Of a stretch of DNA of 64,000 bases, positions 44,857 to 57,342 are shown one piece after another (position 1 is the first letter of the stretch; each line of letters begins with the position of its first letter). This stretch comes from Pseudohongiella sp. GTDB taxonomy: Bacteria > Pseudomonadota > Gammaproteobacteria > Pseudomonadales > Pseudohongiellaceae. The position numbers and the translations under genes were made by a program. The stretch spans positions 124,001 to 188,000 of the forward strand of contig NZ_DRFV01000010.1 in the NCBI RefSeq assembly GCF_011050365.1. Reading direction: 5' to 3'. Below the pieces are notes generated by a model, which was given only the letters and a program-made list of their open reading frames with translations, did not search any database and had not been told where the DNA came from.

Positions 44857-46056
44857 ATGTTTGACAGCCTGAGCCCCCTGCCTGCTGACCCCATACTGGG
44901 CCTGTCGGCGGCACACCGCAGTGACAGCAATCCACGCAAGATTGATCTGGGCGTGGGAGTCTATAAAGATGAGCAGGGCCATACTCCGGTCATGCGGGCA
45001 GTGAAAACAGCCGAAGCCCGGTTATTGCAAAACCAGGTCACGAAAACCTATGTCTCACCGGCCGGGTCAGCGACCTTCAACTCGCTGATTGCCGATCTGG
45101 TGCTGGGCGACAGCCTGAACAAAATGCTGGGCGATCGCCGCGTCACATTTCAGACCCCCGGTGGCTGCGGCGGCCTGCGACTGGCAGCTGAGTTTATCCA
45201 GAAGGTCAAACCCGGCAGCAAAATCCTGGTCAGCGATCCCACCTGGGCCAATCATGTTCCGTTGTTGGGTGAGGCCGGTCTGCAGATCGAGACTTACCCC
45301 TACTACGACTACAATAACCACGGTATTCGCTTTGATGACATGATGACTCGCATCAGCAAAGCCGGGGTCGGCGATCTGGTGCTGTTGCACGGATGTTGCC
45401 ACAACCCCTGTGGCGCCGATCTGAACCAGGATCAATGGCAGGCGGTGGCCGCACTGGCACAGAAAAACGGCTTCACGCCGTTCATCGATCTGGCTTACCA
45501 GGGGCTGGGCGATGGCCTGGCGGACGACAGTTATGGCGTACGCCTGCTGGCGGAAACCTTGCCGGAGCTGATTGTGGTGAGTTCATGTTCGAAGAATTTT
45601 GGCCTGTATCGCGAGCGCACCGGTGCGCTAACAGTCATTGCAGACAATGCCAACGCTGTGCAGGCAGCCGCCAGCCAGATTGCCTCAACTGCACGCGGCA
45701 TGTATTCGATGCCACCGGATCACGGTGCCAGTGTGGTTGCCGAGATTCTTGCCGACAGTGAACTGAACAGTGACTGGGAGCAGGAGTTGACTGAAGTTCG
45801 CGAGCGCATAAACAGCCTGCGCTCGGCGCTGGTTACTGAGCTCAACAAACAGGGTATTGATCGCGACTTTGGGTTTATTGAACAGGAAAAAGGCATGTTT
45901 TCCTTTCTCGGGCTGAGCGTTGACCAGGTACAGACCTTGATCAACGATTACAGTATCTATCTGGTGAATTCGAGTCGTATCAATATTGCCGGTATTAACA
46001 GCAGTAATATTGGCTACCTGGCGCAGAGTATTGCGGCAGTGCTTAAGTCCAGCTAG
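44857..46056 (+). CDS. Aromatic / aspartate aminotransferase (class I PLP)
   Basis: 399 residues from the ATG at 44857 (MFDSLSPLPADPILGL), which has AGGA 8 bases upstream; the frame extends 18 codons further without homology. Conserved blocks: LGVGVYKDEQGHTPVM, SCSKNFGLYRER with the PLP-binding lysine, MFSFLGLS and SSRINIAGI near the end with the substrate-binding arginine. It transaminates aspartate or aromatic amino acids; TyrB and AspC cannot be separated by eye. The palindrome at 46080-46140 follows. Confidence 0.94.
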   Translation: MFDSLSPLPADPILGLSAAHRSDSNPRKIDLGVGVYKDEQGHTPVMRAVKTAEARLLQNQVTKTYVSPAGSATFNSLIADLVLGDSLNKMLGDRRVTFQTPGGCGGLRLAAEFIQKVKPGSKILVSDPTWANHVPLLGEAGLQIETYPYYDYNNHGIRFDDMMTRISKAGVGDLVLLHGCCHNPCGADLNQDQWQAVAALAQKNGFTPFIDLAYQGLGDGLADDSYGVRLLAETLPELIVVSSCSKNFGLYRERTGALTVIADNANAVQAAASQIASTARGMYSMPPDHGASVVAEILADSELNSDWEQELTEVRERINSLRSALVTELNKQGIDRDFGFIEQEKGMFSFLGLSVDQVQTLINDYSIYLVNSSRINIAGINSSNIGYLAQSIAAVLKSS

Positions 46057-46079
46057 CCAGCCCTTGCAATGACAAGGGA

Positions 46080-46140
46080 GCCTTAAACCTCAGGGGGGGG
46101 TACCGGAGCCGGCTCCGGTACCCCCCCTGAGGTTTAAGGC
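46080..46140. repeat. Long intergenic palindrome, copy 1 of 3
   Basis: 61 bases, nearly perfect inverted repeat between the convergent aminotransferase and usp genes. Arms begin GCCTTAAACCTCAGG and meet at GGAGCC|GGCTCC; the only flaw is one extra G in the left G-run (8 versus 7). It has the central sequence GGTACCGGAGCC/GGCTCCGGTACC. It shares plan and core with the elements at 52688 and 57171. It could be a bidirectional terminator but has no T-tract. Confidence 0.8.
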
Positions 46141-46204
46141 ATTTGGCTGGATGCCCCGAAGGGCGGGGCCTGGCGCAGAGTCACCTGGACTTGTTCAGAG
46201 GTTC

Positions 46205-46642
46205 CTAGACCCTGATGGTCAGCACGTCGCAATGGATGCCGTGCAATACGGCATTGGCAGTGGAACCGAGGACGGCACGGACCGGGTTGTGGCCATGACT
46301 GCCGATAACCAGCAGATCGGAGCCCAGTTCTTCGCACAGCTTCTTGATTTCGGTTGCCGGTTTGCCACGCTGGAAATGCACCTGTTGCGCCGGCACCGAT
46401 GGCGACACGGCCGCCAATTTTGCGCGCATTTTGCTGGCAACCTGCTCCTGATGCTCTTTCTGGACTTTCTCAAAGTCTGCCATGTTCAACTCAAATGAAT
46501 AACTACCCAGCAACGGCTCGAACACCATCACTACATCCAGTTGCGCATTGCTGTCACCGGCAATCGCCAGCGCTTTGGTGATGATCTTGTCTGACTCATC
46601 AGAACCATCTACCGCAACCAGAACTTTCTTGTAATCCGTCAT
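46205..46642 (-). CDS. Universal stress protein (UspA domain)
   Basis: 145 residues. The fold starts KVLVAVDGSDESDKI and ends with the ATP-binding loop GSHGHNPVRAVLGSTANAVLHG (G2xG9xGS), so it is of the ATP-binding class. Role in stress tolerance by analogy only. GGAGAG precedes the ATG by 8 bases. A palindrome lies in its promoter region (46665-46680). Confidence 0.93.
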   Translation of the reverse strand: MTDYKKVLVAVDGSDESDKIITKALAIAGDSNAQLDVVMVFEPLLGSYSFELNMADFEKVQKEHQEQVASKMRAKLAAVSPSVPAQQVHFQRGKPATEIKKLCEELGSDLLVIGSHGHNPVRAVLGSTANAVLHGIHCDVLTIRV

Positions 46643-52643: not shown

Positions 52644-52687
52644 CCTGCCGGGCAGGAGAAACAGCCAGCCCGGTCACTGTCAGTGCA

Positions 52688-52745
52688 GCCTCTACCTTAA
52701 GGGGGTACCCGGAGCCGGGTCCGGGTACCCCCTTAAGGTAGAGGC
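52688..52745. repeat. Long intergenic palindrome, copy 2 of 3
   Basis: 58 bases, arms of 29 with one mismatch beside the centre. It starts GCCTCTACCTTAAGGGGG and the centre is GTACCCGGAGCC|GGGTCCGGGTAC. It lies between the convergent Nramp-like and dps genes. Its plan (polypurine G-run, GTACC, GGAGCCGG core) matches copy 1. Confidence 0.85.
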
Positions 52746-52793
52746 ATCAGCGTGATCACTTCGACGGGCTGGCTGCCCCCCTTGGCTGTGCAA

Positions 52794-56936: not shown

Positions 56937-57170
56937 ATGAAACTCCAGTATTTGGGAACCTGGCCTGCCTCCCTGACAACTGAACGGGACCGCAAACCTG
57001 TAGCACCCCGGCCATGGCCGTTGCGCTCTAATCTATAAGGGCGGGCATTTTACGAGAAGCGGGGCCTACTGGCAAGCATTTCTCACTGATTTATGCATAG
57101 ATTTGCAGAGCCTCAGCCATTTTGAGGACAAGTTACCAACAGCGATGTTTACTGTCAGCGACCAAAGCTC

Positions 57171-57231
57171 GCCCGCGTAAGGGCAGGGGGTGCTGGGAAC
57201 CGGCTCCCACACACCCTGCCCTTATGCGGGC
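57171..57231. repeat. Long intergenic palindrome, copy 3 of 3 (imperfect)
   Basis: 61 bases; arms start GCCCGCGTAAGGGCAGGG and end with its complement, with a few mismatches and one bulged base. Centre GGGAACC|GGCTCCC matches the GGRRCCGGSTCC core of copies 1 and 2. Unlike those it lies between divergent genes, upstream of both. Confidence 0.75.
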
Positions 57232-57313
57232 TGACGGAGTGCCAGCGGCAAAATATTCCGGTGCCCCTGTCCTCAAGATGGCGGCATGCCGGCACCCTGC
57301 ATGTCAGTGCGGC

Positions 57314-57342
57314 TTGACAGCTTCGCGCTTCGCCCCTAGCAT
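57314..57342 (+). promoter_or_regulatory. Sigma-70 promoter of ispB
   Basis: TTGACA (57314-57319), 17-base spacer, TAGCAT (57337-57342). Transcript would start near 57350, leaving a short leader before the ATG at 57388. Confidence 0.65.

Follow-up and report, generated by a model that had tools for sequence, protein, structure and literature searches.

A small, clade-specific family of nested intergenic palindromes in Pseudohongiella

Three palindromes of about 60 bases lie between genes at 46080-46140, 52688-52745 and 57171-57231 (here c1, c2 and c3) of the window, i.e. the 64,000-nt stretch analysed here, which belongs to the 3.63-Mb genome (G000) of a Pseudohongiella sp. They raise the question of what keeps the arms of such elements complementary to each other, and of what the elements do between the genes. 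The original prediction had described three palindromes with arms of this kind and taken them for a structured family in which pairing is kept as the sequence changes; the palindromes are present with these arms, and the orthologous copies in related genomes bear out the family, with 8 of the 26 pairs of c2 changed in mirrored fashion.

Beyond that first description, each of the three proved to be the inner part of a bigger imperfect palindrome, with a nested plan of an outer stem, unpaired linkers or an internal loop, and an inner stem of roughly 22-31 bp with a G-run, the family apex being close to AGCCGGGT. All elements are given without strand. The full c1 element with its outer arms (46048-46151) lies between a convergent pair, an aminotransferase gene (+, ending at 46056) and a universal stress protein gene (-, 46205-46642); its inner palindrome at 46080-46140, with the apex GGAGCCGGCTCC at 46105-46116, has arms of 31 and 30 nt and a single surplus G in the 5' G-run. 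The c2 element (52662-52774) consists of the outer arms CAGCCAGCCC and GGGCTGGCT, an internal loop and the inner palindrome at 52688-52745, whose 29-nt arms are 97% complementary with no spacer between them and form 26 pairs closed by a 6-nt loop (apex GGAGCCGGGTCC at 52711-52722). Its neighbours, an Nramp-like gene (+, named mntH here) and a ferritin-like gene (-, named dps here), are again convergent. The c3 element (57116-57282), with the outer arms GCCATTTTGAGGACA and TGTCCTCAAGATGGC and an inner palindrome at 57171-57231 which is bulged near its apex (GGAACCGGCTCC at 57196-57207), lies between the divergent genes rplU (-) and ispB (+), an orientation which adds to the first description. 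It is placed upstream of two promoter-like sites, one of ispB at 57314-57342 on the + strand (TTGACA-17-TAGCAT) and one of rplU at 57047-57075 on the - strand (TTGCCA-17-TAAAAT), the hexamers of which are also found in the aligned spacers.

The three window palindromes are real and beyond chance. Folding z-scores were -9.8 for c1, -10.5 for c2 and -8.4 for c3, with none of 200 shuffles as good in each case, and the motif GGRNCCGGNYCC occurs three times in the window against 0.26 expected, a number reached in 1 of 100 shuffles. In a gap-free hairpin scan, for which a 964-kb Markov sequence served as the control and gave a single match, of score 15, c2 scored 26 and c1 17. The score of c3 was 14, not above this control maximum, because of its bulges; that c3 exceeds chance is therefore concluded from the folding test and from shuffles of its own spacer, of which 0 of 40 reached it, and not from the gap-free scan.

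To find further copies, a covariance model (R1) was built from c1-c3 only. Two more loci of G000 were detected with it, namely L032 between tolC and hemH, which is strong, and the weak L035, so that the genome does not hold only the three. It also gave copies in the genomes G003, G007 and G012; among 56 relatives, the same four genomes were obtained. The second model (R2) was built from an alignment of 11 copies, 10 of them distinct (A6; four of G000, five of G003 and one each of G007 and G012), from which L035 and a G012 copy upstream of an apparent rpsB (L232; the names rpsB and tsf of the genes beside it are assumed by us from their first residues) were left out. In G000, R2 found the same five loci, including the weak one (C11:47571, apex GGCCCGGCCC, 33.1 bits with R1 and 36.6 bits with R2). 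In G003 it found five (aspC-usp, aroF-efp, mntH-dps, rplU-ispB and tolC-hemH), in G007 one (mntH-dps) and in G012 two (tolC-hemH and L232). Together this makes 13 copies, spread over 7 loci and 4 of the 15 Pseudohongiella genomes, counting the weak L035 and leaving aside the weaker R2 matches (E of 4.4e-4 and above, including three from G007 and one from G000). It has to be considered that 11 of these 13 copies are the training set of R2 and are matched by construction, including the c1 and c3 copies of G003, which were first spotted by eye at the syntenic place and then entered into A6. Matches on contig C14 of G003, which repeats contig C6, were counted once only; both contigs carry the same ispB region in opposite orientation, possibly as an assembly duplicate.

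From those inspected, the R2 matches in the remaining 11 of the 15 genomes are weak or belong to another palindrome family, as do both matches in G008 (34.8 and 23.9 bits), which are GGGGACGGAG palindromes. An order-wide search, shallower in that no more than 15 candidates were scored in each genome, gave matches at E <= 0.001 in 5 of 390 genomes, G000 and G007 being two of the five. The other three gave the loci L239, L240 and L241, of which two were inspected: L239 is repeated and resembles coding sequence, and L240 looks like an ordinary hairpin. Nothing convincing was seen outside the genus in this search. No match to the c2 region was obtained in the phages and plasmids searched, and no viral contig matched one stringent pattern in a single scan. 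Rfam 15 gave no match at gathering score in the window, and six loci gave only six matches far below gathering, five of them to microRNA models. A limited literature search yielded no published description of this palindrome family.

Within the four genomes the copies are distributed unevenly. At the place of c1, G003 carries a partly decayed copy and G007 a spacer of 32 nt; G007 lacks c1, c3 and the tolC-hemH copy, and G012 lacks c3, comparisons with G012 leaving out the places of c1, c2 and the aroF-efp copy. The aroF-efp copy of G003 is absent from G000 and G007, a comparison of three genomes only, since the stretches from more distant genomes yielded no efp. Sister genomes thus differ by presence and absence, with empty sites in relatives that may stem from gain or from deletion in each case, and the palindromes form a small clade-specific family that comes and goes between them. 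They are also clustered upstream of ispB, where 11.1 kb hold three of the five loci of G000 and about 11 kb hold four of the five of G003. The chance of the three-of-five clustering in G000 was calculated as 0.00035, a value which flatters it because the window was flagged for holding three; the clustering near ispB is left unexplained by the account favoured below.

The cleaner test of pairing is provided by the mntH-dps element, which is 113 nt long in G000, G007 and G003, aligns without gaps and is fixed in place by the flanking genes, whereas some A6 copies were found with a structure model, which favours paired ones. In the inner stem of c2, 15 of 26 pairs are invariant among the three genomes, 8 have changed on both sides and are still paired, and 3 have one unpaired cell; 75 of the 78 cells are paired, and on each measure 0 of 500 shuffles were as high. 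There is no one-sided change to a wobble pair on the + strand, and two of the three unpaired cells are A-C, i.e. G-T on the other strand. Transversions account for 3 of 4 double changes between G000 and G007, 5 of 7 between G000 and G003 and 2 of 6 between G007 and G003. Over all 11 copies of A6, 82.2% of 230 cells are paired, 16 of 23 pairs vary on both sides, and the covariation score is 0.582, as compared to 0.199 after shuffling and at most 0.325 with the partners slid.

The outer stem of the tolC-hemH copy is perfect in all three genomes, with 19 bp in G000 and 24 bp in G003 and G012, although the arms of G000 and G003 differ by seven substitutions per arm, five of them adjacent, and an indel; its inner stem shows one double change and two one-sided changes to G-T between the same two genomes. 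Compensatory changes in relatives, as expected from the original prediction, are therefore present, and the persistence of pairing through sequence change in orthologous copies suggests that the elements are kept as hairpins.

How fast the surrounding sequence has changed can be judged from fourfold-degenerate sites, at which G007 diverges from G000 by 0.465 (961 sites), G003 by 0.448 (991 sites) and G012 by 0.377 (199 sites). Between G000 and G007, 21 of the 26 c2 pairs and all 29 bases of the 3' linker are identical, as compared to 11 of 16 bases of the 5' linker; against G003 the 3' linker agrees at 24 of 29 bases. Much of c2 is thus better kept than neutral sites and roughly on par with the adjoining coding sequence, which points to constraint or to later exchange between lineages. 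At the same time, a fourfold divergence of 0.38-0.47 means that slow compensation under selection has had time to act.

Copies are found between convergent genes (c1, c2 and tolC-hemH) and between divergent ones (c3 at rplU/ispB and the aroF-efp copy of G003). By eye and in a small sample, 7 of 8 copies at convergent sites are well paired, as against 1 or 2 of 4 at divergent sites, with exceptions both ways, as the c1 copy of G003 is convergent yet decayed and the aroF-efp copy divergent yet well paired. In the spacers of G000 (about 1.1 Mb, with classes that rest on crude gene calls), a stem score of 12 or more was reached by 12 of the 81 convergent ones, as compared to 1 of the 95 divergent and 13 of the 254 tandem ones (convergent against divergent, p = 0.0007; 9 of 78 against 1 of 95 and p = 0.006 without the three family copies). 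Part of this enrichment comes from ordinary terminators, since, of the 21 stems that scored at least 8 in convergent spacers, 8 have a T-run and 10 lack one.

A strong hairpin is retained at two convergent loci across most of the genus, and it is made from unrelated sequences. Between mntH and dps, a hairpin unmatched by shuffles (0/40) is present in 12 of 13 genomes; by eye, the hairpin in 9 of the 10 genomes without the element has a 5' arm that shares bases with the end of the mntH frame and a 3' arm that mirrors it. Between tolC and hemH the hairpin is unmatched by shuffles in 12 of 15 genomes, among the others being G013, with a T-tailed stem (1/40 shuffles), and G007 (2/40). At least three unrelated kinds were distinguished there by eye: 3 genomes have the family element, 7 have GGGGACGGAG-like palindromes and 2 have a CATGGCG stem. 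Elsewhere, a significant hairpin was seen at the convergent aspC-usp locus in 3 of 11 genomes, at rplU-ispB in 1 of 15 and at aroF-efp in 1 of 3. The loci mntH-dps, aspC-usp, rplU-ispB and aroF-efp were picked because some genome holds the element there. The mirrored last codons of mntH can be seen in the spacers of G008 (L124), G010 (L127), G009 (L120), G014 (L121) and G013 (L128), where the codons differ among the five genomes and the hairpin has no T-run.

Starting from what was seen directly, i.e. the family and its nested anatomy, the mirrored changes, the presence/absence pattern and the hairpin retention at the two convergent loci, we favour, with a probability of a little over two in five, the reading that these are mobile-type palindromes which, at convergent genes, may have taken on the role of two-way transcription-end hairpins. 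Mobility, transcription-end role and the way in which the arms stay matched are what we infer here. The nested palindromes would have entered one Pseudohongiella subclade as short mobile-type intergenic elements. At convergent pairs, RNA arriving from either side would form the same highly stable stem, so that the transcript would be stopped or trimmed there and its 3' end protected, while the copies between divergent promoters would be insertions without such a role, some of them decaying. What keeps the arms matched would be selection for the hairpin, to which template-switch copying of one arm onto the other may contribute; mirrored changes are predicted by both. The transversions and the mirrored substitutions in adjacent positions speak for some contribution of template switching, as treated for RNA hairpins in passages of PMC8794818, and the G-T and A-C cells speak for compensation in single steps of the kind that parts of PMC5381666 describe for Bacillus cereus terminators.

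A transcription end without a T-tract, one of the functions initially proposed, fits c1 and c2 and does not fit the copies between divergent promoters. Under a T-run rule no intrinsic-terminator site was reported at c1, c3 or the tolC-hemH copy, and the match at c2 is a weak stem inside mntH. As c1 and c2 have no T-runs, a transcription-end role there would be of a T-less type; the tolC-hemH copy, with 6-7 T in 8 beside its copies in a looser count, may be an ordinary terminator. The bidirectional terminators of B. cereus, as far as passages of PMC5381666 portray them, likewise lie between convergent genes, form hairpins of high stability and show compensatory changes. G-U is the commonest intermediate in those passages, whereas c2 has no G-U on the + strand, even though its A-C cells and the tolC-hemH G-T pairs are possibly such intermediates. 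Unlike intrinsic bidirectional terminators in general, c1 and c2 lack a T-run, the stems are longer, the apex is common across loci and some copies sit between divergent promoters. Against the favoured account stand these divergent-promoter copies, unfit for a terminator, the low count of 3 of 11 at aspC-usp and the uneven conservation of c2.

It is possible, if rather unlikely, that the palindromes are selfish miniature hairpins without a host function, mobilised by an enzyme which recognises the apex on single-stranded DNA and needs palindromic arms. The clade-restricted and patchy distribution, the conservation of apex and G-run across loci beside a variable stem base, and the copies in divergent promoter regions would all agree with this. 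In addition, c3 of G000 and the aroF-efp copy of G003, at different loci, agree at 10 of 20 outer-arm bases, which is weak evidence of copying, as other cross-locus pairs reach 9 of 20. However, at most five copies per genome were found, c2 is better conserved than fourfold sites, which suggests that its place is under constraint, and no linked gene or mobilising enzyme was found for the family. At the c3 locus, whose flanks are highly diverged, neither a target duplication nor an insertion edge, the MITE-like features looked for, was seen by eye. Of the suggestion of a mobile hairpin there thus remains the fit to the presence/absence pattern.

Several known systems were compared. The elements resemble REPs and REPINs in being short, intergenic, hairpin-forming palindromes of patchy occurrence between strains, but their topology is reversed, with apex and G-run conserved and the stem base variable, and REPs or REPINs usually have many copies and a RAYT, which is not linked here. 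The inner stems of about 22-31 bp are also longer than the 5-13 bp given for GTAG/CGTC REPs in an excerpt of PMC3733652. The link to a RAYT-type transposase that had been suggested was dropped: all 15 genomes of the genus carry a Y1 transposase (PF01797, Y1_Tnp) irrespective of the elements, which occur in 4, and the palindromes adjoining these genes are a different family. In 13 Y1_Tnp neighbourhoods, GGGG(A/T)CGG-type palindromes or motifs were seen in 7 and none in 6. The REPIN-like members of the genus are palindromes of the type GGGGACGGAGG...CCTCCGTCCCC, not the nested family.

A retron was ruled out because RVT_1 was found neither in G007 nor in G012, both of which carry copies; the RVT_1 matches of G000 (C2, C9) and G003 (C1) are at least 29 kb away from any copy found. 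The attC sites of integrons also keep their structure while their sequence varies, and they carry R boxes (RYYYAAC / GTTRRRY) at their ends. Integron integrases over the curated cut-off occur near contig ends in G000 (C12:189071-190018, L244) and G003 (C11:1361-2308, L245). R boxes were found in only 1 of 7 copies, tolC-hemH of G000, and not in its G003 ortholog, so that attC was ruled out as well, although by the same strict rule no attC was seen beside three integrases either, which leaves no local reference site. Near integrases R2 gave three weak matches, all in G009.

We are likewise doubtful of a joint reading in which the family is recognised by its apex and its arms are rewritten by template switching, while convergent gene ends would act as 'hairpin slots', filled in turn by unrelated palindromes (the family, RAYT-linked ones, fold-backs of coding ends) that serve as T-less two-way stops; the hairpin would then outlive its own sequence.

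Still less credence is given by us to a mainly mutational origin, in which quasi-palindromes are corrected by template switching during replication and the matching of arms needs no selection on the hairpin. Most c2 stem changes are mirrored, transversions included, as are the seven substitutions, five of them adjacent, of the tolC-hemH outer stem; mirrored differences of the outer bases are also seen by eye between G004 and G011 in their unrelated tolC-hemH palindromes. Multibase compensatory changes that preserve pairing have been published for RNA hairpins, according to passages of PMC8794818; those concern RNA genes, whereas here intergenic palindromes of a repeat family are concerned and the mechanism is putative. 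Possible one-step intermediates speak against this origin, as two of three unpaired c2 cells are A-C and two one-sided G-T changes stand against one double change in the tolC-hemH inner stem, and the fourfold divergence leaves time for slow compensation under selection. Template switching would also leave unexplained the conservation of c2 beyond fourfold sites, the concentration of strong stems at convergent ends and the decay of some copies.

A protein-binding or chromosome-organisation site, such as a dimeric operator or a nucleoid or replication site acting as duplex DNA or cruciform, is improbable, since a duplex operator would conserve sequence and not pairing with changing sequence, and the window has neither a sign change in GC skew nor a match to a dif consensus, although the core is near-palindromic as a duplex, c3 lies between and upstream of two promoter-like sites and three loci are clustered within 11 kb.

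If the favoured reading is true, mobile-type palindromes would have come to serve as transcription-end signals that work without a T-run, and the orthologous mirrored copies at known divergence, together with loci with and without the element, would provide a natural system in which to test the persistence of perfect hairpins in bacterial chromosomes.

Other palindromes were encountered in the course of the analysis. In the window, 2667-2706 is a palindrome of other sequence with 20-bp arms (ACAAAAGCCCCGGGCCTGAA and its near-complement). On contig C10 of G000, a long palindrome between convergent genes (L014:18959-19006; AAAAGCAAGAGGGGGCAGGTTGCC and its complement) starts with AAAAGCAA as does the tolC-hemH copy; its apex is different and it was not counted as family. 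The REPIN-like GGGGACGGAGG family occupies 30 places in G000, e.g. L017:128-186 and L140:6297-6347. Arrays of it, spaced roughly 0.5-2 kb, surround Y1 genes of about 240 aa in G003 (L180), G007 (L181), G001 (L184) and G014 (L187), those of G001 carrying a GGGGTCGGAG variant, and no such arrays were seen in the inspected neighbourhoods of Y1 genes of about 335 aa. In the tolC-hemH spacer of G014 (L173), one palindrome of the GGGGACGGAGG family is nested in the apex of another, with a stem score of 38.
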